Positions 25,947-42,751 of a stretch of 64,000 nucleotides of DNA are shown here, piece by piece; the stretch's first letter is position 1, and every line of letters begins with the position of its first letter. The DNA is taken from NCBI GenBank assembly GCA_015056625.1, contig SVFY01000005.1:1-64000 (forward strand), read 5' to 3'. Made by a program: the position numbers and the translations under genes. Origin of the DNA: Butyrivibrio sp. (GTDB lineage: Bacteria > Bacillota > Clostridia > Lachnospirales > Lachnospiraceae). The notes beneath the pieces are model-generated. The model saw only the letters and a program-made list of their open reading frames with translations. It had not been told where the DNA came from and made no database searches.

Positions 25947-27365
25947 ATGCAGATAATTTACATTAAAGAAGACAAGTTCCAATATGATATCCACTCCCTT
26001 TACAAGGCGTTTTACCCAACAGAGCAGATAAGGGTGATCGTAGGAGAAAGGGGGTCAAACCCTGAAAAAGAAAAGGATATTTCACCAAATGATGAGATAT
26101 CCTTTATTGATGTAAACAAGAGTAAAAATGACCTGAAAAAAGAAATCTATTTACGTCTTTCTCAAAAGACAAACAAGTCTCTTCCCTGGGGAGACCTTAC
26201 AGGGATCCGTCCTACAAGAATAGCCATGAATCTTCTTGAGGAGGGCAGGTCTGATACTGAAATACAGGAATATATGAAGGATACTTATCTTGTTTCTGAT
26301 GACAAGATAAATATCGCCATAGATATAGCAAAAAGAGAAAAAGATATTCTTAAGGACATTGATTATTTAAATGGTTACAGTCTTTACATAGGTATTCCAT
26401 TTTGTCCGACAACATGTCTTTACTGCTCGTTTACTTCCTATCCAATAGGAGCCTACAGCGGTATAGTCGATGATTATATTTCATGTCTTGAAAAAGAGAT
26501 CGATTATGTGGCTGAAAACTTTTTGGATAAAACTCTTGATACAGTCTATATTGGCGGCGGTACTCCAACAACCTTAGAGCCTGACCAGATAAGAAGACTT
26601 ATTGGATATCTGAGAAAAAAGATTGATCTGTCCAAGGTAAAAGAGTTTACGGTAGAATCTGGAAGACCTGATTCTATTACAAGAGAAAAGCTTCGCGCCA
26701 TGAAGGAAATGGGGGTAACCAGAATTTCAGTAAACCCTCAGACCATGAGCGATGAAACTCTTCGCCTCATTGGAAGGCGCCATAGCGTATCGCAGCTTGT
26801 GGATGCTTTTAAAATGGCAAGGGAAGAGGGATTTGATAATATAAATATGGACATTATCCTGGGACTTCCAGGTGAAGACAGCAGTGACGTTGAACACACC
26901 ATAAGCGAGATAAAAAAGCTTGACCCGGATGATCTTACAGTCCATTGCCTTGCAATAAAGAGAGGTTCAAAGCTCTTTGAGGTTATAAGAGAAAAAGAAA
27001 TATCAGGTAACCTTAAAATCCCCATGCTGGATACCATGTCTGACATAGAGAATATGGCAAGGATCGCTGCTAAAGGCGCTGCAGATATGGGGCTTAAACC
27101 CTATTATCTGTACAGGCAGAAGAATATTAGCGGAAACTTTGAAAACACAGGTTACGCAAGAGATGACAAAGCTGGCATCTACAATATCCTCATTAACGAG
27201 GAGGTTCAGTCAATAGTAGCTTTGGGAGCTGGAACTGTTACCAAAAGGGTCTTTCATCAGGGCGGTAGAATTGAAAGATGCGACAATGTAAAGGATGTTA
27301 AGCTGTATATGGATAACATCCAGGAAATGATAGATAGAAAGAAGAAACTCTTTGAAGAAGAATAG
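25947..27365 (+). CDS. hemZ: Coproporphyrinogen dehydrogenase-like radical SAM protein HemZ
   Basis: This radical SAM enzyme has a 4Fe-4S motif C-P-T-T-C-L-Y-C (CxxxCxxC) at about residue 153, followed by the HemN/HemZ-type GGGTPT motif and an IMDLI-like NMDIILGLPGE stretch. The N-terminal 140 residues match HemZ rather than HemW. I prefer ATG 25947 (472 residues), just after the preceding stop, over a TTG at 25905 inside the hydrolase gene. Ribosome site is weak, so coupling to the upstream gene is likely. In families with HemZ the true reaction is uncertain; no other haem genes lie nearby, so a role other than haem synthesis is possible. Confidence 0.88.
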   Translation: MQIIYIKEDKFQYDIHSLYKAFYPTEQIRVIVGERGSNPEKEKDISPNDEISFIDVNKSKNDLKKEIYLRLSQKTNKSLPWGDLTGIRPTRIAMNLLEEGRSDTEIQEYMKDTYLVSDDKINIAIDIAKREKDILKDIDYLNGYSLYIGIPFCPTTCLYCSFTSYPIGAYSGIVDDYISCLEKEIDYVAENFLDKTLDTVYIGGGTPTTLEPDQIRRLIGYLRKKIDLSKVKEFTVESGRPDSITREKLRAMKEMGVTRISVNPQTMSDETLRLIGRRHSVSQLVDAFKMAREEGFDNINMDIILGLPGEDSSDVEHTISEIKKLDPDDLTVHCLAIKRGSKLFEVIREKEISGNLKIPMLDTMSDIENMARIAAKGAADMGLKPYYLYRQKNISGNFENTGYARDDKAGIYNILINEEVQSIVALGAGTVTKRVFHQGGRIERCDNVKDVKLYMDNIQEMIDRKKKLFEEE

Positions 27366-28344
27366 AGCAATAAAAAACATACTGTGTATCATATTAATGT
27401 CTGCTTTTCTGGTGGCCTGTCAGGTAGAAAACGATCAGTTTGCTGGTGACACCTTATCAATACCAGAGGATACTTCCTTTAATGAACAGGTTGCAAAAAC
27501 AGATGAACCAAGCGAAGTTTTAACGGATAACAGCAGTACAGAGGATGATATGAATGATGCTTTAAAACCTGATCATCCATTCGGAGCCGGCGTGTTTTCC
27601 TGGGATCATCTGGCGGATGAAGAGGATGTTGAGTGTCTTGTAAAGAATAATATTACTGAGATCTATCAGTATATCAAGCCTGAGTATTCTGATGAAGAGA
27701 TAGTTTCTTTTCTTGAGAGAATGTCAGATAAGGGTATAGATGTATATATTCTTGACGGCGAACCAACCTGGTCTTATAAAGAAAATCTTCGCTATGCAGA
27801 AGCGGTGATAGACAGGATTGCTTACATCAACAATTATGTCAGCAGGAGAGATCGGATAATTGGTGTTGTCTACGATATAGAACCTTATGTCCTTGATAAG
27901 TGGCACAGCTCGCCACAGCTTATCATGGATGAGTATGCTGAAAACATGAAGGCATTAAAGGACAAGATCGAAAGACGAAGCTATAACATAGAGATGTGCG
28001 TCTGTGTGCCATATTCATTTGATCTTATGGGCTATGAAGAGCACTTATACAGTCTTATCGACAGCGCAGATCAGGTGCTGGTACTTAATTACAACAAGGC
28101 CAATGAGATAGAAGATATAAGAACAGAAATGCAGATGGCTGGTGATCTTGGTAAGAGGATTATAACAGTGTATGAACTGCAGCCAGGGCTTCTTTCTCAG
28201 ACCAATAACAGTGTTACCTATTACAAAGATGGCCTTGGTGCCATAAAGATAAGCTATGAAAATATGTTAAATGCATATGAAGAAAGAAAGCTTGGGATCG
28301 CGTACCACACCCTTGAATATCTCAAGGTTTTAAGTTCAAAGTAA
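27352..28344 (+). CDS. Putative lipoprotein, TIM-barrel-like, unknown function
   Basis: I do not recognise a characterised family. The first 24 residues form a lipoprotein signal with lipobox L-V-A-C. A Ser/Thr/Asp-rich linker of about 40 residues leads to a roughly 255-residue domain that starts GAGVFSWDH. Its alternating helices and strands, with motifs such as YILDGEPTWS, GVVYDIEPYVLDKW and VLVLNYNKA, look like a glycoside-hydrolase-type barrel. Acidic residues in the DIEP and DGEP strand ends could be catalytic. The TTG start overlaps hemZ by 14 bases and there is no strong ribosome site, so it is probably translationally coupled. A terminator follows. Confidence 0.75.
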   Translation: MKKNRAIKNILCIILMSAFLVACQVENDQFAGDTLSIPEDTSFNEQVAKTDEPSEVLTDNSSTEDDMNDALKPDHPFGAGVFSWDHLADEEDVECLVKNNITEIYQYIKPEYSDEEIVSFLERMSDKGIDVYILDGEPTWSYKENLRYAEAVIDRIAYINNYVSRRDRIIGVVYDIEPYVLDKWHSSPQLIMDEYAENMKALKDKIERRSYNIEMCVCVPYSFDLMGYEEHLYSLIDSADQVLVLNYNKANEIEDIRTEMQMAGDLGKRIITVYELQPGLLSQTNNSVTYYKDGLGAIKISYENMLNAYEERKLGIAYHTLEYLKVLSSK

Positions 28345-28513: not shown

Positions 28514-28882
28514 ATGCTGGCAACTGTAGAAAAATCCTACAAATTAAAGACCTTCGTGGCCATACAGCACAGTTTTGACGGCAATAAAGACAATAGTCAT
28601 GTTCATACAGTCGAGATAAACTGCAATATAAAGACCACGGAAGAAATAATCGACTATCGGCTGACAGAGAGCCTTATCGGAAGCTGTGTCTCAAAATATG
28701 AAAATAAATACCTTAATGACTTTGATGATTTTAAGGACGACGCAACGATAGAGCACTTTGGAGAGGTTTTGTGCAGCGAGATAGATCATGAGCTTGTCCA
28801 GAACGGATACAGCATGAACAGGTTTGAAATTGGTGAAACTCCACTAAGAGTTTATGTGATAACTGACGAACTTAGAGATTAA
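28514..28882 (+). CDS. 6-pyruvoyl-tetrahydropterin synthase-like protein (first copy)
   Basis: This 122-residue protein aligns by eye with the QueD/PTPS fold. It keeps the zinc histidines (AIQHSF and SHVH) and the substrate-binding Glu in IGETPLRVY. At the position of the catalytic Cys (four residues before the HxH) it has Lys, and the D-H-H-Y-L-N-D catalytic segment reads E-N-K-Y-L-N-D, so the catalytic Asp and His are also gone. It is therefore unlikely to make carboxy-tetrahydropterin for queuosine. It lies 13 bases before the secreted candidate exosortase substrate gene, and a second such protein occurs at 34310. Family: the PTPS-related proteins known to accompany exosortase G. Role unknown. 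Confidence 0.75.
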   Translation: MLATVEKSYKLKTFVAIQHSFDGNKDNSHVHTVEINCNIKTTEEIIDYRLTESLIGSCVSKYENKYLNDFDDFKDDATIEHFGEVLCSEIDHELVQNGYSMNRFEIGETPLRVYVITDELRD

Positions 28883-28895
28883 AAAGGGAAAAGAA

Positions 28896-30911
28896 ATGAA
28901 AAAGAATTTTTGTAAGATCGTAGCAATAATACTTGCATCAAGCATGATGAGCATGACTGTATTTGCAGCAGAGGATAATAGTTTATCAAATGCAAATACA
29001 AGTGAGAGTGTTGAAACTCCGCAGCCAGACAGTGCTAGTTCCGGAAGCGACAGTGCTTCTGAGAATCATGGCTCATCAGAAAACACTGGATCTGATACTT
29101 CAGGTGGGCAGAGTCAGCAACCTGCAGCTCCTGCTGAAACACAGCCTGCTGCCACAAGTGAAACGCAGCCTGCTGCCCCAGAAAACGAAAATCCAGATAC
29201 ATCAAAAAGTGATGTAACTCCTACGGGTGATGAAGATAATAAGGGCGAGGCTCCAACTGGAGGTTCCTCTGAAAATACAGATGGAACAACTCCTCAAAAG
29301 ACAGAGGGCGAGGGAACAGGAAACGCAGATGCTGCTTCTTCAAGTTCAACCCAGCAGAGCAGCACAGAAGCTGATAAGTCTTCCGGATCAGGAAGTGACA
29401 ACAGCTCATCTGAGGAAGAAGGGGAAAGAAGATCAGCACAGATCCAGTCTGACAGCTGGTCTAATGGCGAACTTGAAGATGTAATGGGCGTCAAAGCAGT
29501 GTCAGATGGACAGACAGTAACTATTTCCTATAAGACTAAGAGCACTAATGAGTGGGAACATACCTGGCAGAATTATCCTCTTACAATAACCTATCCAGAT
29601 GGTACAACGCAGCAGATCATTATTGATTACAACAAGGGTGTTCACGGTGATAACTGGTCAGATATTCCGGAATTTTCTGTTTCTGAAACTTCTGATCAGG
29701 CAGATACACTTACACTTAACATTTCTATTCCTGCTTCATATTTTGCAAGTCAGGACTTTACCGTAAGCAGCCAGAAATATACAACAAGTGTAAGTGGTGA
29801 AGCTATAGAAGATGTTTCTACTACTGATCCCAATGCTGTTTATGAAGGAATTGGACTTGACGGCAGTTTCAACGACTGGAATGCTGTAACTAAATATGAG
29901 CTTAAAGAGCCTGAAGGTGACCACAATGTTGAGTCAGTTGCCTGGGTAATAGATTCAGACAGAGGCTATGTATATATCTACATCAAGGATGACGGAAATA
30001 ACTCAGCTACATGGGCAGGCCCTAACCACAACGGTAAGTTTGAGATCTTAACTGATCTTGGCAACAGAATGCTAATTCAGCTGACACAGGATGGCGCTGT
30101 TGTAGCAGCAAACGGCTACGACGCAGTACATCAGGGAAGCCAGTGGGAGATAGCAATTCCTATTAGTGAGCTTCCAGCCAATACAGGTGGACTTTCATTT
30201 GGTCTTTACATGGAAGAGTCTTCGCTATCAGGTTATGGAGATACTGGAGAAATTGGTTCACCTGTTGGTATAACCTATGATGGAAATTCGGATGACTGGA
30301 CATATTATCCATCAACTCTTATCGAATATACTACACCTGGAACCCAGGAGGTGGTTGTTGATGGAGAAGCTAAGCAGTACAATGACCAGAGCGAAAATAT
30401 TTACGGCTACTGTACAACACAGATGAAGGATCACTTAAATGAGAGAGGCGGAGAATATACACAGGCTGTTTCTGTGCTTGTAAATAATGACTGGAGCCAC
30501 GCATTGGGGATGAGACTTGTAACAGTTGATGCCAGTGGCAATATAGATTGGAATCCTCAGAGGCAAGGACTTGAAAATGGCAGCTATGAATATTATATTT
30601 TCCCTTTAGAAGCATGGGGTGCAAGTAAAAATATAAATGAACTTGTAGGAGCTGATGTCTGCTATGGAAAAGCGACTATAAATATTACTGACACACAGCA
30701 GGAAATGGAATGGTATGTAAATACTGTTAAGCTGGCAGAAAGATATGGTATAGATGCAACAGATGTCAAAACTGTATCGACACAATATGGAAGGATTGGA
30801 CAACAACTTGTAACCTGTGCAGGTACAAGTACAGGCCCATGGGGCGGTGCTGCAATGTGCATGTTCTTCGCAGCTGCTCCATTTATTATCAAAAAGAAAT
30901 TCATATTTTGA
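28896..30911 (+). CDS. Secreted protein with C-terminal sorting-like tail (Firmicu-CTERM type), candidate exosortase-G substrate
   Basis: The 671-residue protein has a signal peptide (cleavage near V-F-A-A-E) and a Ser/Thr/Pro/Glu-rich low-complexity stretch (about 28-180), likely an extended stalk. A beta-rich domain (about 185-270) is followed by a domain (about 310-455) with GIGLDGSFNDW and repeated aromatic strands resembling CBM9/DOMON-type carbohydrate-binding modules. A further beta-rich region (about 480-600) follows. The C-terminus has a short S-T-G-P-W-G-G motif, one hydrophobic helix, then I-I-K-K-K-F-I-F: the tripartite layout of exosortase signals. As I recall, a Firmicu-CTERM family has been defined for proteins in XrtG-encoding Firmicutes. 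The xrtG gene is the next gene. Processing by it is inference. Confidence 0.8.
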   Translation: MKKNFCKIVAIILASSMMSMTVFAAEDNSLSNANTSESVETPQPDSASSGSDSASENHGSSENTGSDTSGGQSQQPAAPAETQPAATSETQPAAPENENPDTSKSDVTPTGDEDNKGEAPTGGSSENTDGTTPQKTEGEGTGNADAASSSSTQQSSTEADKSSGSGSDNSSSEEEGERRSAQIQSDSWSNGELEDVMGVKAVSDGQTVTISYKTKSTNEWEHTWQNYPLTITYPDGTTQQIIIDYNKGVHGDNWSDIPEFSVSETSDQADTLTLNISIPASYFASQDFTVSSQKYTTSVSGEAIEDVSTTDPNAVYEGIGLDGSFNDWNAVTKYELKEPEGDHNVESVAWVIDSDRGYVYIYIKDDGNNSATWAGPNHNGKFEILTDLGNRMLIQLTQDGAVVAANGYDAVHQGSQWEIAIPISELPANTGGLSFGLYMEESSLSGYGDTGEIGSPVGITYDGNSDDWTYYPSTLIEYTTPGTQEVVVDGEAKQYNDQSENIYGYCTTQMKDHLNERGGEYTQAVSVLVNNDWSHALGMRLVTVDASGNIDWNPQRQGLENGSYEYYIFPLEAWGASKNINELVGADVCYGKATINITDTQQEMEWYVNTVKLAERYGIDATDVKTVSTQYGRIGQQLVTCAGTSTGPWGGAAMCMFFAAAPFIIKKKFIF

Positions 30912-30928
30912 TCAGACTAGATTATAAG

Positions 30929-30991
30929 ACACTGGGAATAGCTCTCTTTGATCCCACAAAGGTCAGATGAGAACTATCCCCAGTGTTTTTT
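30929..30991 (+). terminator. Terminator between the candidate substrate gene and xrtG
   Basis: An 18-base stem with two mismatches (30929-30946 with 30969-30986) and a 22-base loop is followed by a T tract to 30991. It separates the abundant-protein gene from the enzyme genes, which would allow unequal expression. Confidence 0.75.
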
Positions 30992-31043
30992 GTCTTTATA
31001 AACATTTCACAGAATCTTGGCAATATTATTACGGCTAATAGTA

Positions 31044-31049
31044 TATAAT
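31044..31049 (+). promoter_or_regulatory. Candidate -10 box for the xrtG transcript
   Basis: A perfect TATAAT lies 33 bases before the xrtG start, after the terminator. The nearest -35-like sequence (TTGGCA at 31017-31022) is 21 bases away, too far for a standard promoter, so activation or a poor -35 must be assumed. Confidence 0.4.
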
Positions 31050-31081
31050 AGAAGTTGAGAATAAGGGTGCGGAGGTAAACC

Positions 31082-31774
31082 ATGCCTATTACATCACGTA
31101 TGTCTGCTTTTCTTTCAACGATAAATCCGTCTAATACTACGAAAGTCATAATCTTCATAGTTCTTTTAACAATCTGGCTTCTTAATCTTAGGATCTTCTA
31201 CAAAGTAAAGAACCAGGCTGCGTTTATTACCATCGGAATGGGCGGATTGTTTGTTCTTATGATGATCTTCTTAAGACCAATTGCTACAATGCCGCTTGCA
31301 AGGATAGTTGCTGCGCTTGCAGGACTCTTTGGCCGTGTAACTGGCTTCTTTTCAGCATTTTTTAAGTATGGTATCATTTTTGTTGAGACTGCAGGCGGGT
31401 CCATGACGTTGCAGATAGACTTTGAGTGCTCTGGAATAATAGAGATCATGGTATATATTGCGATCCTTGCTTTTTACAAGGTCTATACCGTATCTGAAAG
31501 GGCGATCCTTTCCGCTGTTGGAGTAATATATATCATTCTTGCAAACGCACTGAGGATCATAATCATCGCCACAATGATACATTTTGGAGGCGAGCAGATG
31601 TACTATGTTGCCCACACCTATGTTGGAAGAATATTCTTCTACGCAGCTACGGTAATCCTGTACTTCTATGTATTTACGAAATCACAGGTAGTGAGAATGA
31701 AGGTTGGAAGCTTCTCCTACGACAAAGAAAAAACTGACGCTCCTAAGAATGATGAGAAAAAGGAAGATAAATAA
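31082..31774 (+). CDS. xrtG: Exosortase family protein XrtG
   Basis: Exosortases are polytopic membrane cysteine transpeptidases thought to recognise C-terminal sorting tails. This 230-residue protein has about six or seven hydrophobic helices. The conserved exosortase triad is visible: Cys116 in DFECSGI, Arg158 in NALRIII, and His178 in VAHTYVGR. The spacing and the Gram-positive context fit the XrtG subgroup. A charged Lys/Asp-rich tail ends the protein. GGAGG lies upstream of the ATG. Three bases after the stop begins the glycosyltransferase gene, and the preceding gene encodes a protein with a matching C-terminal tail. Family call is strong; transpeptidase activity is predicted from the family, not shown. 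Confidence 0.9.
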   Translation: MPITSRMSAFLSTINPSNTTKVIIFIVLLTIWLLNLRIFYKVKNQAAFITIGMGGLFVLMMIFLRPIATMPLARIVAALAGLFGRVTGFFSAFFKYGIIFVETAGGSMTLQIDFECSGIIEIMVYIAILAFYKVYTVSERAILSAVGVIYIILANALRIIIIATMIHFGGEQMYYVAHTYVGRIFFYAATVILYFYVFTKSQVVRMKVGSFSYDKEKTDAPKNDEKKEDK

Positions 31775-31776
31775 AT

Positions 31777-33138
31777 ATGGGAATAACTACATTTTTTAAT
31801 TCCTTTATATTCTGGGGCGCCTGGGTGATCATCCCATTTATCATGGAGATCATACCCTCCATAGGAAGTGCCATAACCCTGATAAAAAAGAGGATCATAA
31901 ATTATCATCCCAAGCCCCCTCTTGCATATCCTGAAATATCTCTTATTGTGCCTGTATATAACTCCTATGATTCGCTTCGTGAGTGCATCAAATCCATTCA
32001 TGATTCAAGCTATGACGATTCAAAGATAAGAGTATACCTGGTAAATAACAGGACCAAGGACGATTCTTTTCATGTGTACACAGAGGCACAAAAGGAATTT
32101 CCCACAATAAGGATGCAGTGGCTAAATGCCAGACAGGGAAAGAGCAGGGCCTTAAACCTCGCCCTTTATAACAGTACTGGTAAGTACATTATTAACATCG
32201 ATTCCGATGGCGCTCTTGAAAAAGATGCCCTGAAGAATATGATAGATGTGTTTGAGTCTGATTCATCTATCGGCTGTATGACTGGTGCTATCCTTACTAT
32301 TCCTGAACAGATAGAAGAGTACAAGCATTTCTTTTCAAGGCTTCTTAGGCAGATTGAGTTTGTTGAGTACGCCCAGGCTTTTCTTGCAGGAAGGAGCTAT
32401 GCATCAGAAAAGAATGAGATCTATACTTTGTCAGGTGCTTTTTCAGCATTTCGAAAGTCAACTGTTCTAAAATCAAGGATGTATAACACCAATACCATTG
32501 CAGAGGATACACAGATAACCTTCCAGATGAGGTATTTGATGGGACAGAAGGTTAAGCTGTGCGACAACGCAATATATTTCGTTGGACCCATTGAGGGAAT
32601 GAACAAGCTCTATACCCAGAGACAGAGGTGGCAGAGAGGATCTTTGGAAGTTGCCAATATGTTTGATTCCAAGGACTTTCGCCCAGGCAGAATGCTCAAA
32701 GATGTGAATGTGCGTACTCTTTTGTACGACCATACCTTTGCCTTCCCCAGGATCGTGTGGATACTTGCCCTTGTGTGCCTTTACTTTATGGACTTTTCCA
32801 CTAAGATGATCCTGCTTTCTAGCGGACTTATAATGCTCATCTATGTGGTGATAGCATATTTGTATTTTTGGTCCATCAGTATATTCCTTAAGGAATTTCC
32901 GGATATACGAAAATATTACAAGTCGCTTTGGTGGGCGATACCAATATTGCCGCTTTTTAACATGCTTACTTTCTTTATCAGACTTACAGGTATCTTTAAC
33001 AGCATGAACACCACCAGCGCATGGAAGACCAAGACCTTTACGGAGGAAGTGGAAGAGTATAAGAGTGTTGTAAAAAGCGATATGAAAAAGATATCTCTTT
33101 TGAACTCAAAGCTCTATCATTTTATGAATGAATCATGA
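31777..33138 (+). CDS. Family 2 glycosyltransferase of the exosortase-G locus
   Basis: This is a membrane-bound processive-type GT2. An N-terminal hydrophobic helix is followed by a GT-A domain that starts ISLIVPVYNSYDSLRECI, with ARQGKSRALNLAL, the metal-binding D-S-D in INIDSDG, an acceptor-site region with AEDTQITFQM, and the processive-synthase motif Q-R-Q-R-W (QxxRW). Three or four C-terminal helices (about 320-420) follow. The domain order resembles cellulose, hyaluronan and poly-GlcNAc synthases. It lies three bases after xrtG and overlaps the next gene by four bases. A GT2 next to xrtG is a known pairing. I infer that it builds the polymer or lipid-linked glycan used by the system. 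Confidence 0.92.
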   Translation: MGITTFFNSFIFWGAWVIIPFIMEIIPSIGSAITLIKKRIINYHPKPPLAYPEISLIVPVYNSYDSLRECIKSIHDSSYDDSKIRVYLVNNRTKDDSFHVYTEAQKEFPTIRMQWLNARQGKSRALNLALYNSTGKYIINIDSDGALEKDALKNMIDVFESDSSIGCMTGAILTIPEQIEEYKHFFSRLLRQIEFVEYAQAFLAGRSYASEKNEIYTLSGAFSAFRKSTVLKSRMYNTNTIAEDTQITFQMRYLMGQKVKLCDNAIYFVGPIEGMNKLYTQRQRWQRGSLEVANMFDSKDFRPGRMLKDVNVRTLLYDHTFAFPRIVWILALVCLYFMDFSTKMILLSSGLIMLIYVVIAYLYFWSISIFLKEFPDIRKYYKSLWWAIPILPLFNMLTFFIRLTGIFNSMNTTSAWKTKTFTEEVEEYKSVVKSDMKKISLLNSKLYHFMNES

Positions 33139-34298
33139 AAAATACTAAGAGAAAAAGCGGGATAATAAGTATCCCACTTATCTTAATAGTAATGCTGTTA
33201 GTGGTCACGGCACTTGTTGCTCTGACCTATTTTGAGATGCAAAGATATGAGGACGGAATCCTTGATGTCTGCGCAACACAGCAGGACAGCTATGTTCAGC
33301 TGGTTATCGATCAGATAAACCTTAAAGAAAACAGGACAGATCAGGAGATCATTGAGAGTATCCTCAGCACTTTGGACTCATCTTCAAACAGATACTGGAC
33401 TTTTTCAAAAGACCAGACAATGCTCTATGTAAAGGATGCGCTTGAGACCAACAGGTATCAGGCACTTACTGCAAATTCCTACTACACAACAGATTCATCC
33501 ATGGGCTTTATCAGCAATCTTGAGCTTAATAAGGTTAAGCATGAGAGGATCTTTTTGGACAACAAGGAGTATATCGCAAGTGGCGCGCTGTTTGACTATG
33601 AAGATGAACAGTACAGGATATGTCTTTTGACCAATACCACAGTACTACTTGATAACAACAAGTTCCTGGGATCCAAGATGGAGCTGATCATCATATTTGT
33701 GGTGGTTTATTCAGCAGTATTTGTGCTTCCGATAATCCTTGCGATCGTCAATAACAAAAACAAGAAGAAGGTCTTTTCAACAGAGGCTGATCTTAAAAAT
33801 GCCAATGACGTTATAGAGGTTTTAAATGAGAAACTGGTAAAGGATGAAATCTATGACAATCGCCTGAACCTTTTTAACTTCACGGCCATAGAAAAATTCC
33901 TTGAAGAATATAAAAAGCAGGTCAAAGCTTTTCCGATATCTTTTATAGCCTTCAGGTATGGTCAAAAGGAGACGGTATCAAACTTCTTTGGGGCAAACTG
34001 CATTCTTTTTGGAAAAAGAGATATCAAGTTTTACGATGGAAAGAATCACCTGGCTCTTATCATGTCAGTAAAATGTGACAATGAAAAAGCTAAAGAGATA
34101 GCAAGAAAGGTCAAGGCTGATGCAGAGCTTTTATCTGTGGAAACAGCAAGGTCAAGGCTTGATCTTAAGATGATCTATGACAGGACCATGAGAGCTATGG
34201 GAAATCCTGAGATTGTTTCACCTATTTCAAATGATAAGCCAATGAGGCCTGATTCAAGGACAGAATCAAGATTCAGATCAAAAGAAGATAAGTCTTAA
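33135..34298 (+). CDS. Two-helix membrane protein with degenerate GGDEF-like cytosolic domain
   Basis: The 387-residue protein has a transmembrane helix at about 12-32, an outer domain of about 155 residues, a second helix at about 188-208, a short coiled coil, and a cytosolic domain (about 235-350). The cytosolic part follows a GGDEF outline: R-L-N-L-F-N near its start, an FRYGQ strand, then Y-D-G-K-N-H where the GG(D/E)EF loop should be, followed by LALIM and a KAKEIARKVKADAE helix. The signature is destroyed, so diguanylate cyclase activity is not expected; it may bind nucleotide or be structural. The start overlaps the GT2 stop (ATGA), indicating coupled translation. The GGDEF relation is a tentative reading. 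Confidence 0.7.
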   Translation: MKNTKRKSGIISIPLILIVMLLVVTALVALTYFEMQRYEDGILDVCATQQDSYVQLVIDQINLKENRTDQEIIESILSTLDSSSNRYWTFSKDQTMLYVKDALETNRYQALTANSYYTTDSSMGFISNLELNKVKHERIFLDNKEYIASGALFDYEDEQYRICLLTNTTVLLDNNKFLGSKMELIIIFVVVYSAVFVLPIILAIVNNKNKKKVFSTEADLKNANDVIEVLNEKLVKDEIYDNRLNLFNFTAIEKFLEEYKKQVKAFPISFIAFRYGQKETVSNFFGANCILFGKRDIKFYDGKNHLALIMSVKCDNEKAKEIARKVKADAELLSVETARSRLDLKMIYDRTMRAMGNPEIVSPISNDKPMRPDSRTESRFRSKEDKS

Positions 34299-34309
34299 GG
34301 GGAATACAA

Positions 34310-34777
34310 TTGCGTAACGATGCACTTCGAGAATACAAGTTCAAATTGTACTTAAATGCCAATCACTATGTGATCTTTAATGGAAAAAAGGGTGAGAGCC
34401 ACCCTCACACCTGGGAGTTCGCAATAGAGCTTTTGGTAGACAAGGACAAATTCATTATGTTCCTGGATTTTGAAAAAGCTATAGATGACTTTCTTGAGCC
34501 TTTTCAGGATAAGCTTCTTAATGATATAAAGCCCTTTGATACTATAATCCCGACTCTTGAAAATATGCTGGATTACTTTGCACCTATTTTCTATGAGGAG
34601 ATCAAAAAGATAGGCGGTCTTCTGATCAAGATCGAAGCCAGTGAAACACCTTCAAGAACATATGTATATTCCTTCAGAGGAAGGGATGAATATTTAAATG
34701 ATCTTAAGGAGCATATGAATACTGCTCTTGATAATATAGTACATTCCATCGTGGAAGAGAGTCTAGATGAAGAGTAA
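34310..34777 (+). CDS. 6-pyruvoyl-tetrahydropterin synthase-like protein (second copy)
   Basis: This is a 155-residue QueD/PTPS-fold protein. Zinc histidines are kept (NANHYV and SHPHTW), as is the pterin-contacting Glu in ASETPSRTY. The catalytic Cys position is Lys, and the segment aligned with D-H-H-Y-L-N-D is Q-D-K-L-L-N-D, so the catalytic Asp/His pair is lost. The N-terminal part and a long C-terminal helical tail distinguish it from the copy at 28514, although both share Ser-His-x-His-Thr and the E-T-P motif. Translation begins at TTG 34310 after AAGGGGAA. It overlaps the following membrane protein gene by 11 bases. I suggest a pterin- or metal-binding adaptor rather than a synthase. 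Confidence 0.78.
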   Translation: MRNDALREYKFKLYLNANHYVIFNGKKGESHPHTWEFAIELLVDKDKFIMFLDFEKAIDDFLEPFQDKLLNDIKPFDTIIPTLENMLDYFAPIFYEEIKKIGGLLIKIEASETPSRTYVYSFRGRDEYLNDLKEHMNTALDNIVHSIVEESLDEE

Positions 34778-37424
34778 AATACCAGGCTTTTTGGCAATCT
34801 TAATAACCATTGCATCTTTGTTTGGGATTTCTTTTCTCCTTTCAGAACTTATAGTCAATAACGGCTTATATCCCAGCGGACAGGATGCATATTATCACCT
34901 TTTCAGGGGAGATATGCTCTATAAGTCTATTGTGAGAGATAACTATTATCCTCTGTACAATAGCATGTGGTATAACGGTATCCAGCCCCTTAGGTATATT
35001 GCGCCCCTTTCAGCAGTTTTACTGGCTTTGTGTGAGATGTATTCAGGGGGGCAGATTTTTATTGCCTACGTCTATTACTGCGTCCTGATCTTTTCTTTAG
35101 GGCAGCTTATATGGACCATTATTGGCTTTAAAAAGAAAAGACCCCTTACAGGAACCGTGTTTGGGATCATCTACTTTTTCCTTCCTGTAAATATATATGT
35201 TCTGTTTAGCCAGGGCAATCTTGCCATGGCTCTTTGTGTTTTATTTGTGCCACTTTTTCTTTTTGCTGTATCTGAGTATCTTGAAAGCGGAAGAGTAAGG
35301 GATCTTGTGGCGATAATTATTGTAAGCTGCCTAATGATCCTGTCCCATACTGGAACGGCGCTTCTTCATTTTCTTCTTGTATGTATCTACATGCTTTTGC
35401 AGCGTTTCTTTTTCAGAAATCGAAGAAGAATGCTAAAAGCCTTTTTAAGCATGATCATATCCTTCATTATCTGCGGCATTTATACAGTGCCAATGCTGAT
35501 AGGCGGCTATGACTTTGAAAAGCTTGATAAGGCAGGAAACTATTTCCAGAGTATTCTGATCACATTAAATCCGGTTTACAGGCTTACAGCGCCGGAAACA
35601 GCGTACTTTGGCTTGTCTCTTTTGATAATTGCAATCCTCGGGATAATGGTAAGCAATCACAAGTCAGCGCCAATGTTTATCGGTGCTGTGGTGACAGTTC
35701 TTTTAACAGGAACTACATCTTACCTTATGATCCGCATCATTCCGGGAGCGGAAATGCTTTGGATGCTGATGCTTCTTCCAGGTGGAGTATGCCTTGTGCT
35801 TCTGGGAGTGATGTACTGGGATAAGCTTAGGAAGTGGATATTAGCTCTTTTTGTTGTGATCATACTGATCGACGCGGTTCCTTCCCTTTACTGGATCTAT
35901 GGAAATGGAGGCGCCAAGCAGCCTGGGCAGAGGATAGTCGAGCTTTCAGAAAATACCCTTATTAAAGAGGCAAAGGAGCAGACAGCCCAGAGAGCAGCGT
36001 TTATTGACCTTGGTGAGCTTTCAGGGGAAGGTGTTTTTGCCCTTTGTAATGGACCTGATGGGGCAGCGGAAGTCTTCGGACAAAAATATGAGTCAGCTGT
36101 GACAAGAGATAACACAAGAAGGCTCAATATGGCCCTTAGTGATGAGTACTATAACTACCTGTTCGACAGATGCATAACCCTTGGAGCTGACACCGTCATT
36201 ATTGACAAGGAGCAGGTTTCTTATGGGGAAAAGAGCCTTGTAAAGCTTGATAAAGCTGCAGAGAGATGTAACTACGATTTTCTTTATGAAAACAGCAGGT
36301 ATATGCTTTACCATCTTGCTGGCATTGACTCTTATTTTGGCACCAAAACCAGCTATGACGCAATTGGGATTGGATATAGCGCATATTCTCTGTCCCTTGC
36401 TTTCCCCAATATAAAAGAGACCAGTGATGAGTATCTGGATCACTACAGCTACGAGGAACTTTCCAAATATAAGACCATCTATCTTTCAGGATTTTATTAT
36501 GATAACAGGATCGCTGCAGAAAACCTTGTAAAAAAGCTTTCTGAAAACGGAGTAAGGATAGTTATTTTGGCGGATGGAATGCCTGAAGACAGAGATACCA
36601 GGACCAAGACCTTCCTTGGAGTTACCTGTAACGTGGTACAGTTCGAAAACGGATATCCAATTCTTTATACTGAAGACTTTGGAGAGATGGACTGCGACCT
36701 TTTCCCGAGAGGGTATTCCAAGTGGATCACATATTACTTAAATGGACTTAAGGAAGTTAAGGGAACAGTTTACGACAACAATATTGAACTGGCATTCTTT
36801 GGATCAGGTATCAATGAGAATGTCTGCTACATAGGCCTTAATATTCCTTTCTATTACTACATTACAAGGGATTCACGCGCTGAAAAGATCATGCAGTGGG
36901 TTATGGGCATGGAACCAAATGTTCTTCCTGAAAAAGAGATCTATCCCATTGAGATTTCAAGCTTTTTAAACGGACTTATGATAAACAGCCCGGTTGACGA
37001 GCTAAACACCGGGTTAGCTTTTCAGGATATCTTTAGATCAGACAGTCAGATAAGTGAAGATAATAATCTTTTAGTTGTAAACTCAGGAAACACCATAATC
37101 AGGCTGGTCTATCCATATCTTATGGAAGGTATAATCGTTACCGCTATCGGAGTCATATTATGCATGATCTTCCTGATATACTGCATGACATCTGAGATAA
37201 GAGACAGGGAAAAGAAAGAAGAAACCGATTCTGAGGATGAGACAGAGGAACAGCCTGAGCCAGATAATGAGGGAGATGAAGCTGTTTCAGAGAAGGAAAA
37301 TGCTGGGAAAGAGACAGCTTCAGATGAATTGCAGAAACACAAATACGACCTTAAGTCTTTTGATATTGACTTAACAAGTGGTGACGATTTTGATATTCCT
37401 TTTGGACATAAAGGTAAAAAATAA
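34767..37424 (+). CDS. Large GT-C-like membrane protein (PTPS-related membrane family) of the exosortase-G locus
   Basis: The 885-residue protein has about twelve hydrophobic helices in its first 390 residues, an outer soluble domain (about 400-780), one final helix (about 790-815) and an acidic cytosolic tail. The first outer loop contains P-S-G-Q-D-A-Y-Y-H-L-F-R-G-D, typical of GT-C-like proteins that have an acidic motif after helix 1; the family is named in Pfam as PTPS-related because of its neighbours. It starts inside the end of the second PTPS-like gene, so translation is coupled. A role as flippase-linked transferase or polymer co-synthase is inferred from fold and locus only. It closes the exosortase-G operon. 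Confidence 0.82.
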   Translation: MKSKIPGFLAILITIASLFGISFLLSELIVNNGLYPSGQDAYYHLFRGDMLYKSIVRDNYYPLYNSMWYNGIQPLRYIAPLSAVLLALCEMYSGGQIFIAYVYYCVLIFSLGQLIWTIIGFKKKRPLTGTVFGIIYFFLPVNIYVLFSQGNLAMALCVLFVPLFLFAVSEYLESGRVRDLVAIIIVSCLMILSHTGTALLHFLLVCIYMLLQRFFFRNRRRMLKAFLSMIISFIICGIYTVPMLIGGYDFEKLDKAGNYFQSILITLNPVYRLTAPETAYFGLSLLIIAILGIMVSNHKSAPMFIGAVVTVLLTGTTSYLMIRIIPGAEMLWMLMLLPGGVCLVLLGVMYWDKLRKWILALFVVIILIDAVPSLYWIYGNGGAKQPGQRIVELSENTLIKEAKEQTAQRAAFIDLGELSGEGVFALCNGPDGAAEVFGQKYESAVTRDNTRRLNMALSDEYYNYLFDRCITLGADTVIIDKEQVSYGEKSLVKLDKAAERCNYDFLYENSRYMLYHLAGIDSYFGTKTSYDAIGIGYSAYSLSLAFPNIKETSDEYLDHYSYEELSKYKTIYLSGFYYDNRIAAENLVKKLSENGVRIVILADGMPEDRDTRTKTFLGVTCNVVQFENGYPILYTEDFGEMDCDLFPRGYSKWITYYLNGLKEVKGTVYDNNIELAFFGSGINENVCYIGLNIPFYYYITRDSRAEKIMQWVMGMEPNVLPEKEIYPIEISSFLNGLMINSPVDELNTGLAFQDIFRSDSQISEDNNLLVVNSGNTIIRLVYPYLMEGIIVTAIGVILCMIFLIYCMTSEIRDREKKEETDSEDETEEQPEPDNEGDEAVSEKENAGKETASDELQKHKYDLKSFDIDLTSGDDFDIPFGHKGKK

Positions 37425-37549: not shown

Positions 37550-37587
37550 TCTAACTATAAATTTTGCAATGTCAAAGGAGGTTTTTT

Positions 37588-38706
37588 ATGTTATTTCAAC
37601 TTTACAGCGACCATGCATCTATGCAGCTGATTGGTTGGGTATTAGTGTTTGTGGGACTTATTCTCATGAACGAGATTGGTCGTAGGACCAAGCTTGGTGG
37701 AATGATTGTATTTGTAGCTATTCCTACAATCCTTACAATTTATTTCATCCTTGCACATGTAGGCATGTTTGGTGGCAAGTCAAACCCTACAGTAGCATTT
37801 ATGGACGGATGGTTCCATTATTTCAAACTTTATGCAGCTGATATCGGTTGCGTAGGCTTCATGATGATCAAGTATAAATGGGGCATCGGTAAGGAAAATT
37901 GGTTTAAGTGGTTCCCATGGTTCATCGTAGCAGCAAACATTATGATCGCTAACGTTTCTGATATGGAGTCAGCTCTTGCAGCTTTCTCAATCACAGGCAA
38001 TCTTTCAGGTGCTTGGTGGGCATCAAACGAAGGTGTATTCATCTACGGTGGATGGTGGAACGTTGTCAACGCTCTTGCAGGACTTATCAATATCTTCTGC
38101 ATGACTGGCTGCGTACATCTTTACACATCAAAGGACAAGAACCAGGCAGATATGCTCTGGCCTGATATGACAATCTGGTTCATCCTTGCATATGACGTTT
38201 GGAACTTTGAGTACACATACCTCAACCTTCCTACACATTCATGGTACTGTGGTGTAGCACTTCTTCTTGCTCCTACATTTGCAAACGCATTCTGGAACAA
38301 GGGCGCATGGATCCAGAACCGTGCTAACACACTTGCAATCTGGTGCATGTGGGCACAGGTTGTTCCTGCATTCCAGCTCAGCTCACGCTTTGCTGCAGCT
38401 CTTCCTTCAGTATATGGCGGAGCTACTGAGGCAGGCATCACAACTATGGACCTGTATGCTAAGGCTATTGAACTTTACAATTCTGGGGCTGGTAAGACAG
38501 CACAGGCTGGTGATATAATCTCATCCATGGGTATCACCGCTAATCCTACAGCTCAGGGCGTTGTTGCTATTTTAGCAATTGCGATCAATGTAGTTTGTAT
38601 GACAGAAATCATTAAGAGATCGATCAAGCTTGGTAAGAATCCTTATGCAAACGAAGTATTTGGTGATACCAAGGACTTCCAGCTTGCTATGGAGCGTGCA
38701 GAATAA
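37588..38706 (+). CDS. DUF5692-like polytopic membrane protein
   Basis: The 372-residue protein has about nine hydrophobic helices and an unusual content of Trp, His, Met and Cys, including VAFMDGWFHYFKLY, WFKWFPWF and THSWYCG. It resembles the family named DUF5692, whose function I do not know. The start at ATG 37588 is set by AAAGGAGG (37575-37582); an in-frame ATG at 37564 lies in the leader. Its stop overlaps the hypB start (TAATG), so the two are translationally coupled. Possible roles include metal handling or a quinone/redox-linked membrane partner of the downstream oxidoreductase; the sequence alone does not decide. Confidence 0.75.
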   Translation: MLFQLYSDHASMQLIGWVLVFVGLILMNEIGRRTKLGGMIVFVAIPTILTIYFILAHVGMFGGKSNPTVAFMDGWFHYFKLYAADIGCVGFMMIKYKWGIGKENWFKWFPWFIVAANIMIANVSDMESALAAFSITGNLSGAWWASNEGVFIYGGWWNVVNALAGLINIFCMTGCVHLYTSKDKNQADMLWPDMTIWFILAYDVWNFEYTYLNLPTHSWYCGVALLLAPTFANAFWNKGAWIQNRANTLAIWCMWAQVVPAFQLSSRFAAALPSVYGGATEAGITTMDLYAKAIELYNSGAGKTAQAGDIISSMGITANPTAQGVVAILAIAINVVCMTEIIKRSIKLGKNPYANEVFGDTKDFQLAMERAE

Positions 38707-39374
38707 TGGATAATGTTCGAGTAATTGAAGTCAAGAGAAGCATCTTTGAGAGCAATGATAAGGATGCAGAAAAACTCAGGGGAGAACTTAAGGAGTCCAA
38801 GACTTTTCTTTTAAACCTTATGTCAAGCCCTGGATCTGGTAAGACTACTACACTTAAGAGGACTATTGAGACCCTTAAGGACAAATACAGGATCGGTGTT
38901 ATGGAGGCGGATATCGACTCAGATGTTGATGCCAAGGCTATCGCTGAACTTGGAGTTAAGTCTATCCAGCTTCACACAGGTGGAATGTGCCACCTTGATG
39001 CAGACATGACAAGACAGGGTATAAGAGAACTTGATGTTTCGGATGTGGATTTTGCCATCCTTGAAAATGTAGGTAATCTTGTTTGCCCCGCTGAGTTTGA
39101 TACAGGAAGCACTAAAAATGCCATGATCCTTTCAGTTCCTGAGGGACATGACAAGCCTCTTAAGTACCCGCTTATGTTCTCCATTTGCGACGTGGTACTT
39201 ATCAACAAGATGGACGTTGCTCCCTACTTTGACTTTGATCTTGAAAAGTGCAAAGAGTACATTCATATGCGCAATCCCAAGGCCATCATCATTCCTATCT
39301 GTGCTAAGACAGGTGAAGGTATTGATGAATGGGCTGCGTGGCTTTCTGATCAGATAGAGGAAGCTATAAAGTAA
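38706..39374 (+). CDS. hypB: Nickel incorporation GTPase HypB
   Basis: HypB is a SIMIBI-class GTPase that delivers nickel, usually to NiFe-hydrogenase, together with HypA. The 222-residue protein lacks the His-rich nickel-storage N-terminus seen in some species. The Walker A motif is S41-P-G-S-G-K46-T-T, the metal site is in HTGGMCHLDADM and NLVCPAEFD, and the base-specificity motif is NKMD. The start overlaps the preceding gene by one base. hypA follows after 134 bases. No hydrogenase structural genes or hypCDEF occur in this window. Confidence 0.93.
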   Translation: MDNVRVIEVKRSIFESNDKDAEKLRGELKESKTFLLNLMSSPGSGKTTTLKRTIETLKDKYRIGVMEADIDSDVDAKAIAELGVKSIQLHTGGMCHLDADMTRQGIRELDVSDVDFAILENVGNLVCPAEFDTGSTKNAMILSVPEGHDKPLKYPLMFSICDVVLINKMDVAPYFDFDLEKCKEYIHMRNPKAIIIPICAKTGEGIDEWAAWLSDQIEEAIK

Positions 39375-39400
39375 ACATAGATCTGGCATTGAGATGAGAG

Positions 39401-39456
39401 AAAGCCATGCGATAAACAAGGGAAGTTTATCTTAACCTTAGTTTCGCATGGCTTTT
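39401..39456 (+). terminator. Long hairpin between hypB and hypA
   Basis: AAAGCCATGCGA (39401-39412) pairs exactly with TCGCATGGCTTT (39444-39455), with an inner TAAAC/GTTTA stem, followed by a short T run (39453-39456). It could be an intrinsic terminator with a weak tail or a regulatory leader for hypA. Confidence 0.55.
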
Positions 39457-39508
39457 ACTTGTATAAGGATCAAATGAAATTTATTTAAGGCAGACAAGGT
39501 AAAGACAA

Positions 39509-39853
39509 ATGCATGAACTTGGTGTTGTTTTTCGAATAATTGATGACCTTACAGAGGTGGGAAAAGAGAATAATCTTGAAAAGATACATTCAGTAACCCT
39601 GCAGCTTGGAGAAGTTTCAGGTGTGGTACCTTCTCTTTTGAACGACGCATGGAAGTGGGCTGCTGCCAGGACAGAGCTTATGGACGGGGCAAAGCTTATT
39701 ATAGAGACTCTTCCTGCTGTAACCTTCTGCGAGGACTGTAAAAGTGAATATGAAACCGTAGCCCATGGCAAGATCTGTCCCAACTGTGGCAGTGAACATA
39801 CATATCTCTTAAAGGGCAACGAGTTTATGATAAAAGAAATTGCGGCAACGTAA
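39509..39853 (+). CDS. hypA: Nickel metallochaperone HypA
   Basis: HypA binds nickel through its N-terminal M1-H2-E3 and zinc through two CxxC pairs, and hands nickel to the target enzyme with HypB. Here M-H-E-L-G is followed by the family's alternating strands, and the zinc site is C74-E-D-C77 and C90-P-N-C93. The 114-residue length is typical. Its ribosome site is only a weak AAGGTAAAG. The 36 bases to the next start codon suggest co-transcription with the FAD/Fe-S oxidoreductase gene. Confidence 0.93.
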   Translation: MHELGVVFRIIDDLTEVGKENNLEKIHSVTLQLGEVSGVVPSLLNDAWKWAAARTELMDGAKLIIETLPAVTFCEDCKSEYETVAHGKICPNCGSEHTYLLKGNEFMIKEIAAT

Positions 39854-39889
39854 ACTAAAGTTTTGAGTGTAAGAAAGGTAGGAGAAAGA

Positions 39890-42751
39890 ATGGTTGATAT
39901 GAATACAATGGATATGAAGGATCTAAACACTCCATATTCGCTGGATCCAAACCGTAACAGAATTGACCCAAGAGCTGGCATCATTCCAGAGTGGGTAGAT
40001 ATGAATGCTCCTTTCAGAGAGCCCCTGGCGAGGCTGGCCAAGGCTATTACTGACAGGAAAGAAATAAAGCTCGGTCTTGAAAAGATAACAAAAGAAAGCC
40101 CTGAGTATTGGGGAATTTACAATCTTGTAACTGATGAACAGTGCGAGATTGCTCTTAAGATGGAAAAGAGAAAGCCAAAGACATTTGAAGAAATTGCAGC
40201 TCTTTGTCCTGAATACTCAAAAGAGGAGCTGCAAAAGCACCTTGATGAGATGTCATATCACGGAATCATTGAGTGGAACTACGAAAATGAAAAACATGTT
40301 AAGCAGTATGTTCTTCCTATGTACGTTCCAGGCTCTGCTGAGTTCGGTAACATGAACGGCAGAGTTATTGAAGAGCATCCAGAAGTAGGACCTTTCTTTG
40401 AGAGAATGAGCCGTATTCCGCTTGAGGGACTTACACATATGGTTCCTATGGGCGGTGCTGGCGTTGGTATGCACGTTATCCCTGTAGAGAAGGCCATCGA
40501 GATGGAGAACACTGCTATCGGCCTCGAGAAGATTTCATACTGGCTCGACTACTATGAGGGAAAATATGCTGCATCTCCATGCTCATGCAGAAGAAGCAGA
40601 AAGACCTATGAGCAGGGCTGCGCTGATGATCCTGAAGGCTGGTGCATCGCTATCGGCGATATGGCTGACTATGTAGTTGAAACTCAGAAGGATGGAAGAT
40701 ATATCACCAAGGAAGAAGCTCTTGAGATCTTTAAGCAAGCTGAGGACAACGGCTTTGTTCATCAGATCACTAATATTGATGGCGAGCACAAGATCTTTGC
40801 TATCTGTAACTGTAATGTAAATGTCTGCTATGCCCTTAGAACATCGCAGCTTTTCAATACACCAAACATGTCACGTTCAGCATATGTTGCACACGTTGAC
40901 AAGGAGAACTGCGTAGCATGTGGACGCTGCGTTGAGGTTTGTCCTGCTGGTGCAGCAACCCTTGGACAGAAGCTTTGCAGGAAAGATGGCAGCGAAGTTT
41001 TATATCCTAAGATGCCTCTTCCTACTGAGAAGAAGTGGTCAACTGAGATGTGGACTGAGGACTACAGAGACATTAACCGTATCAACACCCACAAGACTGG
41101 TACAGCTCCTTGTAAGACTGCATGTCCTGCACATATTCCTGTTCAGGGATACCTTAAGATGGCAGCCCAGGGTAGATATGAAGAAGCTCTTGCTCTTATC
41201 AAAAAGTACAATCCACTTCCTGCAGTATGTGGCCATGTATGTAACAGACGTTGTGAGGATGCTTGTACAAGAGGAACTATTGATCAGGCTATAGCAATTG
41301 ACGAGGTTAAGAAGTTTGTTGCTATGCGCGATCTTGAATCAGATACACGCTACATTCCAAAGAAGGTAATTCCTAAGATCGGTGGAGGCTTCGATGAGAA
41401 GGTAGCAATAATCGGTGCTGGCCCTGCTGGTATTTCATGTGCATATTACCTGGCTCTTAAGGGATACAAGCCAACACTGTTTGACAAGAACAAGAAGCCA
41501 GGCGGAATGGTAACTTATGGTATTCCTTCATTCGTAATGGAAAAGAATGTTGTGGAAGCCGAGGTTGATGTTCTTAGAGAACTTGGCGTAGACATCCGCC
41601 TTGGAGTAGAAGTTGGAAAAGATATTACTCTTAAGCAGCTTAGAGAAGAAGGCTACAAAGCATTCTATATTGCTATTGGCTGCCAGGGAGGAAGAGGAGT
41701 TAATGTTCCAGGCGAGGATGCACAGGGCGTTCTCAAGGGCGTTGACCTTCTCCATGAAGTAATTGATGACGAGAGCTACAAGCTCGTTGGAGATACAGTT
41801 GTTATCGGCGGTGGTAACGTTGCTATCGATGTCAGCCGCACAGCAATTAGATGTGGTTCTTCCAAGGTTACACAGGTTTCTCTTGAGACAAGGGACATCA
41901 TGCCAGCTCTTCCAGAGGAGATCGAGATCGCAGAATCTGAAGGCATTGAGCTTAAGGGCGGCTGGGGACCAAAAGAGATCCTTACTGAGAATGGAAAGGT
42001 TAAGGGAATCGTATTTAAGAAGTGCACTCAGGTCAAGAACGCTGAGGGACGCTTTGATCCTAAGTATGACGAGAACGAGACCATCACCATCGACTGTGAG
42101 AATGTTATCCTTTCTGTTGGCCAGGCAACTGTATGGGGAGATCTGTTAAAGGACGAGAACGTAGAGTTCAGAGGACCTGCACCTGCAGCTGACAAGGTTA
42201 CATTCCAGACAACAGTTCCTGATATCTTTGTTGGTGGTGATATGTTCTACGGACCAAGGTTTGCCATTGATGCTATTGCATGCGGAAGAGAAGGCGCTGA
42301 GTCTATCCACAGATTTGTACAGCCTCATTCTTCACTGACAATCGGCCGTGATCCTAACTTCTTTATCGAGCTTGATAAGGATGACATTTCAGTCAAGGAT
42401 TATGACCATGTTGGAAGACAGACAGCAGGCGTTAAACAGACTTCAGATGGCAAGCTTTCCTTCCGTGATAACAAGCTTGTATTTACAGAAGAGCAGGTTA
42501 AGAAAGAGACTTCAAGATGTCTGTCCTGCGGTGCATCAATTGTTGATCCAAACAAGTGCGTAGGCTGTGGACTTTGTACTACAAGATGTGAATTTGATGC
42601 TATCAAGCTTACAAGGGATAATCCAGACTGCTCAACCATGAGAAAGGCGGAGGACAAGCTTAAGTACATCCTTCCAAATGGTGCAAAGCAGGCACTTGCA
42701 AGACCTTTCGTTAAAAAGACTCCAAAAGAGACTGCATGGCTTAAAAAGTAA
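39890..42751 (+). CDS. Multi-domain FAD/NAD(P) and iron-sulfur oxidoreductase, GltD-like
   Basis: The 953-residue enzyme combines several modules. Residues about 1-130 contain a winged-helix-like segment. About 220-320 hold an unusual cysteine cluster, SPCSCRR with EQGC, GWC and ICNCNVNVC. A ferredoxin motif CVACGRCVEVCPAG follows near 345. A GltD-type N-terminal Fe-S region has CKTACPAHIPVQGYLKMA and CGHVCNRRCEDAC. The FAD site is G509-A-G-P-A-G514 and the NAD(P) site is G640-G-G-N643. Near the C-terminus lie CLSCGA and CVGCGLCTTRCEFDA. I set ATG 39890 after GTAGGAGAAAG rather than TTG 39863. It likely moves electrons between NAD(P)H and ferredoxin-type carriers. The partner is unknown; nickel chaperone genes adjoin it. 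Confidence 0.88.
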   Translation: MVDMNTMDMKDLNTPYSLDPNRNRIDPRAGIIPEWVDMNAPFREPLARLAKAITDRKEIKLGLEKITKESPEYWGIYNLVTDEQCEIALKMEKRKPKTFEEIAALCPEYSKEELQKHLDEMSYHGIIEWNYENEKHVKQYVLPMYVPGSAEFGNMNGRVIEEHPEVGPFFERMSRIPLEGLTHMVPMGGAGVGMHVIPVEKAIEMENTAIGLEKISYWLDYYEGKYAASPCSCRRSRKTYEQGCADDPEGWCIAIGDMADYVVETQKDGRYITKEEALEIFKQAEDNGFVHQITNIDGEHKIFAICNCNVNVCYALRTSQLFNTPNMSRSAYVAHVDKENCVACGRCVEVCPAGAATLGQKLCRKDGSEVLYPKMPLPTEKKWSTEMWTEDYRDINRINTHKTGTAPCKTACPAHIPVQGYLKMAAQGRYEEALALIKKYNPLPAVCGHVCNRRCEDACTRGTIDQAIAIDEVKKFVAMRDLESDTRYIPKKVIPKIGGGFDEKVAIIGAGPAGISCAYYLALKGYKPTLFDKNKKPGGMVTYGIPSFVMEKNVVEAEVDVLRELGVDIRLGVEVGKDITLKQLREEGYKAFYIAIGCQGGRGVNVPGEDAQGVLKGVDLLHEVIDDESYKLVGDTVVIGGGNVAIDVSRTAIRCGSSKVTQVSLETRDIMPALPEEIEIAESEGIELKGGWGPKEILTENGKVKGIVFKKCTQVKNAEGRFDPKYDENETITIDCENVILSVGQATVWGDLLKDENVEFRGPAPAADKVTFQTTVPDIFVGGDMFYGPRFAIDAIACGREGAESIHRFVQPHSSLTIGRDPNFFIELDKDDISVKDYDHVGRQTAGVKQTSDGKLSFRDNKLVFTEEQVKKETSRCLSCGASIVDPNKCVGCGLCTTRCEFDAIKLTRDNPDCSTMRKAEDKLKYILPNGAKQALARPFVKKTPKETAWLKK

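Follow-up and report, generated by a model that had tools for sequence, protein, structure and literature searches.

What does an exosortase do in a Gram-positive bacterium whose exosortase gene lies among genes for a glycosyltransferase, a membrane sensor and two pterin-fold proteins? A cluster of seven plus-strand genes at positions 28514-37424 of contig SVFY01000005.1 from Butyrivibrio sp. raises this question; positions are those of the window, the whole 64,000-nucleotide stretch of DNA that was analysed. We propose, at a probability of about 0.5, that the cluster encodes a machine, gated by a signal, for making and decorating a glycan of the cell surface and for displaying one dedicated surface protein with it. 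The locus belongs to a known type of system, that of exosortase G (XrtG), and what is new is a layer consisting of a sensor and PTPS-fold proteins, together with relatives whose exosortase has lost its cysteine. The parts of the locus are as follows.

28514-28882, plus strand: ptA, PTPS-fold protein (TIGR03112) with zinc ligands H19, H29 and H31 and without the catalytic Cys
28896-30911, plus strand: Firmicu-CTERM surface protein (the substrate) with a signal peptide, a Ser/Thr/Pro/Glu-rich stalk, two beta-sandwich domains and a C-terminal sorting signal
30822-30908, plus strand: C-terminal sorting signal of the CTERM protein, read from the sequence as a GTSTGP motif, a hydrophobic helix and the basic end KKKFIF
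30912-31000, plus strand: intrinsic terminator, a hairpin followed by a T run, between the substrate gene and the enzyme genes, judged by folding energy
31082-31774, plus strand: xrtG, exosortase G (TIGR03110), with Cys116, Arg158 and His178
31777-33138, plus strand: GT2 glycosyltransferase (GT2) of the XrtG system (TIGR03111), with D142/D144 and QRQRW at 281-285
33135-34298, plus strand: g5, predicted membrane sensor, with a transmembrane segment, a Cache domain, a transmembrane segment/coiled coil and a degenerate GGDEF domain
34310-34777, plus strand: ptB, PTPS-fold protein (TIGR03112) with zinc ligands H19, H31 and H33, Glu84 and Glu112, and without the catalytic Cys
34767-37424, plus strand: gtC, 12-helix PTPS_related membrane protein (PF10131), GT-C-like, with G38-x-D40...H44

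The seven open reading frames lie where a preliminary description of this DNA had placed them, with correct bounds, and the overlaps that it reported, an ATGA at 33135-33138 and 11 bases at 34767-34777, are present. The terminator that it placed after the substrate gene is also borne out by the hairpin at 30912-31000 (minimum free energy -34.2 kcal/mol, z -5.93, with 0 of 200 shuffles as good), which a simple terminator scan does not list. Five of the seven genes score above the curated cut-offs of XrtG-system families: XrtG (TIGR03110, 161.9 bits; cut-off 102.75), the GT2 (TIGR03111, 591.3 bits; cut-off 363.95), ptA and ptB (TIGR03112, 79.7 and 129.5 bits; cut-off 69.35) and the substrate (TIGR04145 Firmicu-CTERM, 84.9 bits; cut-off 50). 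With its XrtG, the Cys/Arg/His triad, an adjacent Firmicu-CTERM protein and a TIGR03111 GT2, the locus is an exosortase G system. In its own genome, 85% complete, one XrtG is found and, by the Firmicu-CTERM model, one CTERM protein.

The families of the cluster occur together, as the preliminary description held and as both family models and gene neighbourhoods now show. A sample of 299 genomes of the family contains 20 in which XrtG (TIGR03110) passes its cut-off, and TIGR03112 passes in exactly the same 20, more than chance would give. A PF10131 score above 200 bits is reached in 18 of the 20 and in 1 of the 279 others, and at its low curated cut-off PF10131 is found in 31 of the 299. At the level of the phylum, a GT2 over cut-off is found in 10 of 398 genomes, with xrtG adjacent in 10/10. 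A scan baited with the GT2 alignment gave 80 named loci among the matches listed (at least 80), whose titles are mostly Lachnospiraceae and other Clostridia. Within these 80 listed loci, xrtG is present in 79, g5 and PTPS in 76 each, and gtC and the substrate in 75 each; among the 52 listed named loci of at least 18 kb, xrtG, PTPS, gtC and the substrate are each present in 52/52 and g5 in 51/52. Within the genus only some genomes have the cluster (5 of 37, with each of the five less than 90% complete), and a Butyrivibrio isolate (L082) carries the cluster on a 0.8 Mb contig.

The triad Cys116/Arg158/His178 of the preliminary description is real, and each residue is invariant in 100/100 XrtG rows (loci L048-L147 and the window, with some genomes included twice). 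The tripartite signal, consisting of a motif, a hydrophobic stretch and a basic end, is found in 72 of 76 substrates with a loose pattern. By score XrtG is not EpsH-like, since it reaches 27.5 bits with TIGR02602, far under the cut-off of 105.55. A second XrtG-like stretch in another genome (G631:C6:17640-17900) contains three stops and is likely a relic; an intact copy lies elsewhere in that genome.

A different picture of the exosortase comes from a second family of the phylum, in which 13 of the 54 genomes searched have a match, seven fused and six unfused. In the seven, the beta-sandwich domain of the substrate and its QWxPxP motif continue into the first helix of XrtG within one protein of about 400 amino acids. 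Asn replaces the XrtG Cys in 9/9 fused copies (eight genomes, including G137 from another family), whereas Arg is kept in 9/9, His in 8/8 copies that reach that site (the ninth ends at a contig edge) and QWxPFP in 9/9. The six unfused XrtG proteins of the same family have Cys, Arg and His. At E 1e-6, a threshold that a more divergent protein could escape, the seven genomes with the fusion show no free substrate; the same search finds a separate substrate frame in 6/6 unfused genomes. The fused copies form one clade (support 97/97) and therefore reflect one event. The XrtG part of the fusion is under purifying selection, with a ratio of nonsynonymous to synonymous substitution rates (dN/dS) of 0.08-0.13 in unsaturated pairs. 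PTPS-gtC precedes the fusion in 7/7 genomes with sufficient contig (G075, G194, G777, G767, G776, G272 and G773), and the GT2 follows it in 6/6 (G075, G194, G777, G767, G776 and G137). By hhalign, the Firmicu-CTERM domain is a homologue of both the fused and the free domains (probability 97.3, E 2.6e-11; 95.1 against a longer alignment), and these score under the TIGR04145 cut-off (15.9 and 19.4 vs 50). Upstream of PTPS-gtC in the Cys-less clade (L148, L149, L183, L185 and L186) lies a protein of 167-212 amino acids with a shared tail and, where its start is seen, LFGFKP near the start.

These results show that the other parts of the system are retained, in at least one clade, after loss of the exosortase nucleophile. 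In that clade either fusion replaces cleavage as an assembly step or the function has switched, and cleavage of the CTERM protein may be dispensable. A bolder and rather less likely reading starts from the Arg, the His, QWxPxP, the GT2, PTPS-gtC and strong purifying selection, all of which persist after fusion and the change of Cys to Asn. On this reading XrtG would be at heart a partner in the membrane that keeps one beta-sandwich protein close to the glycan synthase, rather than an enzyme that trims proteins. Cleavage would then serve assembly, a role that fusion can take over, and the essential product would be a substrate-XrtG-GT2 complex gated by the Cache sensor through PTPS-fold ligand receptors.

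A rival model follows the preliminary description, in which a glycan is linked to a cleaved surface protein. XrtG would act as a sortase-like transpeptidase: it would remove the CTERM signal and join the new C-terminus to the product of the GT2, a glycan or glycolipid, so that a polysaccharide is anchored to the surface protein. The invariant triad, the conserved tripartite signal, the single substrate in the genome and the adjacency of XrtG and the GT2 in the examined loci all agree with it. However, no acceptor is known, and the Asn found in 9/9 fused copies, with Arg, His and purifying selection maintained, means that in that clade the other components endure in the absence of transpeptidase chemistry. 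We consider this mechanism rather unlikely; a glycan-to-protein linkage may exist in the Cys-bearing forms.

The QxxRW motif noted previously corresponds to Q281/R284/W285, the GT2 motifs are invariant in 11/11 aligned rows, and hydropathy gives four membrane segments. By score the protein is not PgaC/IcaA (TIGR03937, 119.2 bits; cut-off 422.3). In 8 of the 80 listed named loci (L073, L094, L098, L101, L104, L106, L107 and L110), the GT2 carries an added MdoB-like domain of the sulfatase superfamily, giving proteins of 958-994 amino acids. The added domain of L073, the only one scored against families, matches Sulfatase with 74.8 bits (cut-off 25) and reaches 164.7 and 141.5 bits with phosphoglycerol transferase models, under their cut-offs of 572 and 574; the other seven match a profile built from all eight. 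Phosphoglycerol is a likely decoration of the GT2 glycan in some relatives. OpgH and OpgB (MdoB) act in osmoregulated glucan synthesis, and the GT2-MdoB-like fusion is a possible parallel to this pair; the GT2 belongs to a different family, however, and that of the window has no MdoB-like domain.

The last gene, gtC, scores 379 bits with PF10131 (cut-off 26.4), and its hydropathy count of 12 membrane segments agrees with the preliminary description. D40 is kept in 81/92 rows and H44 in 76/92. A second, weaker PF10131 protein (34.2 bits) is encoded apart from the cluster in the same genome (G000:C26:40832-41518). Enzymes of undecaprenyl-phosphate-sugar type lie near some relatives: a PgfS-like GT2 adjoining PTPS-gtC in C. 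ljungdahlii, a GtrA/DPMS-type protein in L051 and an ArnF-like protein in L149. One profile finds a small GT2 in 13 of the 52 long loci, and no small GT2 or undecaprenyl-phosphate-sugar-type enzyme is seen adjoining the window locus. From these neighbours in other genomes, we infer that gtC would transfer sugar from a polyprenyl-phosphate donor. Together with the GT2-MdoB-like fusions, they support a glycan that is probably extracytoplasmic.

Gene fusions in relatives also connect gtC to the other parts. PTPS is fused to gtC in 5 of the 80 listed named loci and in 6 of 20 further loci, and elsewhere to a membrane sensor. L052 encodes a PTPS-signal peptide-substrate fusion, and L150, L152 and L153 encode PTPS-gtC-substrate as one frame of 1287-1300 amino acids. 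A signal-peptide-like stretch precedes the substrate part in these three, and the chain may therefore be cut there. Such single frames, the PgfS-like GT2 of C. ljungdahlii and the long Ser/Thr-rich stalk of the window substrate would fit a protein O-glycosylation system. In it gtC, supplied by PgfS/DPMS-like GT2s, would glycosylate the CTERM protein, with the TIGR03111 GT2 lengthening or providing the glycan and XrtG releasing or anchoring the glycoprotein. However, short substrates of 219-232 amino acids have no such stalk by eye, and the GT2-MdoB-like fusions point instead to a glucan-like acceptor for phosphoglycerol. We judge such a system to be rather unlikely.

The fifth gene had been described as a two-helix membrane protein, a description that needs correction. 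By predicted fold, g5 is a Cache sensor followed by a degenerate GGDEF domain; the protein itself has no NCBIfam or Pfam family match, and a GGDEF/GGEEF motif is present in 0 of 93 g5 proteins, although the fold matches a diguanylate cyclase. In L180 (NZ_CP110851.1, 4413-10691), on the Lactococcus lactis plasmid pBV60, the XrtG system occurs with a diguanylate cyclase of intact motif and an EAL gene. The plasmid is typed as conjugative, and bacteriocin genes lie a few kb from its XrtG system.

The PTPS-fold pair is similarly altered. The three zinc histidines are kept in 50/51 ptA rows and 96/96 ptB rows, while Cys within 7 residues before HxH is found in 0/51 and 0/96. At the catalytic Asp and His positions of QueD/PTPS, placed by alignment, ptB has Gln66 in 96/96 rows in place of Asp and His in 0/96; ptA has Asp in 4/51 and His in 1/51. 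The pocket residues P-T/S-x-E and a later Glu are kept in ptB, and in ptA the first Glu is present in all rows and the second is Glu or Asp in nearly all. ptA and ptB reach 24.8 and 17.9 bits with the QueD model, under its cut-off of 89.25, and no other PTPS-fold protein is found in their own genome, which is 85% complete. Because the zinc histidines and pocket residues are kept and the catalytic residues are lost, the pair look like zinc-holding ligand pockets without known PTPS chemistry, whose ligand may be a pterin or a guanine nucleotide. Some PTPS enzymes have Glu in place of the Cys, so ptA and ptB may still carry out some chemistry. That they are active pterin enzymes making a pterin cofactor or a pterin-sugar conjugate for the membrane enzymes is nevertheless very improbable: the zinc histidines and, in ptB, PTxE with the later Glu agree with it, but the Cys is missing from all 147 rows, the catalytic Asp-His places are changed, both proteins fall short of QueD, and relatives fuse PTPS to a membrane sensor and to gtC. 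The g5 sensor and the lost PTPS catalytic residues, both absent from the preliminary description, point to a regulatory layer.

In the signal-gated machine that we propose, the Cache sensor would read an outside signal, which would be relayed by its degenerate GGDEF domain together with the two PTPS-fold proteins, predicted to hold zinc but altered at their catalytic residues. The relay would bind a small ligand whose ring resembles guanine or a pterin (GTP, cyclic di-GMP (c-di-GMP) or a pterin itself), and it would gate gtC and the GT2. The GT2, PgaC/IcaA-like in this role, would build and extrude a sugar polymer, and gtC would add sugars outside the cell from undecaprenyl-phosphate-linked donors, with the polymer or the CTERM protein as acceptor. 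The CTERM protein would present its beta-sandwich domains on a stalk, held in the membrane beside XrtG, which in most genomes could process the C-terminal signal through Cys116.

We compared the locus with known systems. In common with the XrtG/Firmicu-CTERM systems defined by TIGR03110, TIGR03111, TIGR03112 and TIGR04145 (PMC12854382), it has an exosortase, a GT2 and a CTERM protein of those families, each scoring above the curated cut-off. The 'complete XrtG system' of L. plantarum consists of four genes, encoding CTERM, Xrt and two glycosyltransferases, to which the locus adds two PTPS proteins, the PF10131 membrane protein and the sensor with its Cache and degenerate GGDEF domains. In that self-aggregation study, some L. 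plantarum strains have higher transcripts of the four-gene set, and the passages of PMC12854382 examined contain no xrtG mutant. The GT2 of the XrtG system also appears in a table of PMC8951740. In the literature searched, which left most subscription journals outside its scope, we found no experimental role for exosortases in Gram-positive bacteria and no function for the XrtG system, as the preliminary description had also stated.

PEP-CTERM/EpsH systems share the Cys/Arg/His exosortase, the C-terminal tripartite signal and nearby polysaccharide genes (PMC1569441), whereas the window exosortase falls short of TIGR02602 and the motif is GTSTGP, not PEP. The single substrate compares with a median of eight in PEP-CTERM genomes, which can have only 1 (PMC1569441). 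The preliminary interpretation is partly supported. It stands as to a strictly co-occurring XrtG system with one CTERM protein and glycan enzymes; the Cys-less fused clade and the low TIGR02602 score speak against its analogy to PEP-CTERM/EpsH export. The synthase-dependent exopolysaccharide systems PgaC/IcaA and BcsA and the gts operon of L. acidophilus (PMC6123363) also have a membrane GT2 bearing QxxRW, close to domains of c-di-GMP type; in the part of PMC6123363 consulted, the gts operon is linked to c-di-GMP and encodes a GT2 but no exosortase. The locus differs from them in its low TIGR03937 score and in having an exosortase and a CTERM protein, and its PTPS proteins and degenerate GGDEF domain are likely regulators. 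PruR-DcpA pterin signalling (PMC13259868) likewise connects c-di-GMP domains and surface polysaccharide with a pterin-fold protein whose catalytic function is altered. This is an analogy only, as PruR is periplasmic with a SUOX fold (PMC13259868), whereas the window proteins have the PTPS fold and no signal peptide by eye.

Around the cluster, a lipoprotein-like protein (by eye; no NCBIfam or Pfam match at E 0.01) is encoded upstream at 27352-28344. A DUF5692 protein (Pfam, 422.9 bits) lies directly downstream at 37564-38706, followed at 38706-42751 by open reading frames that by eye encode HypB-like and HypA-like hydrogenase maturation proteins and a large iron-sulfur oxidoreductase.

With an enzyme-substrate pair, a GT2 and a sensor bearing a GGDEF relic identified, the question of what exosortases do in Gram-positive bacteria becomes testable. 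PTPS-fold proteins without the PTPS catalytic residues are proposed as ligand receptors that would control a surface glycan, and a naturally Cys-less, substrate-fused exosortase separates proteolysis from partnering.

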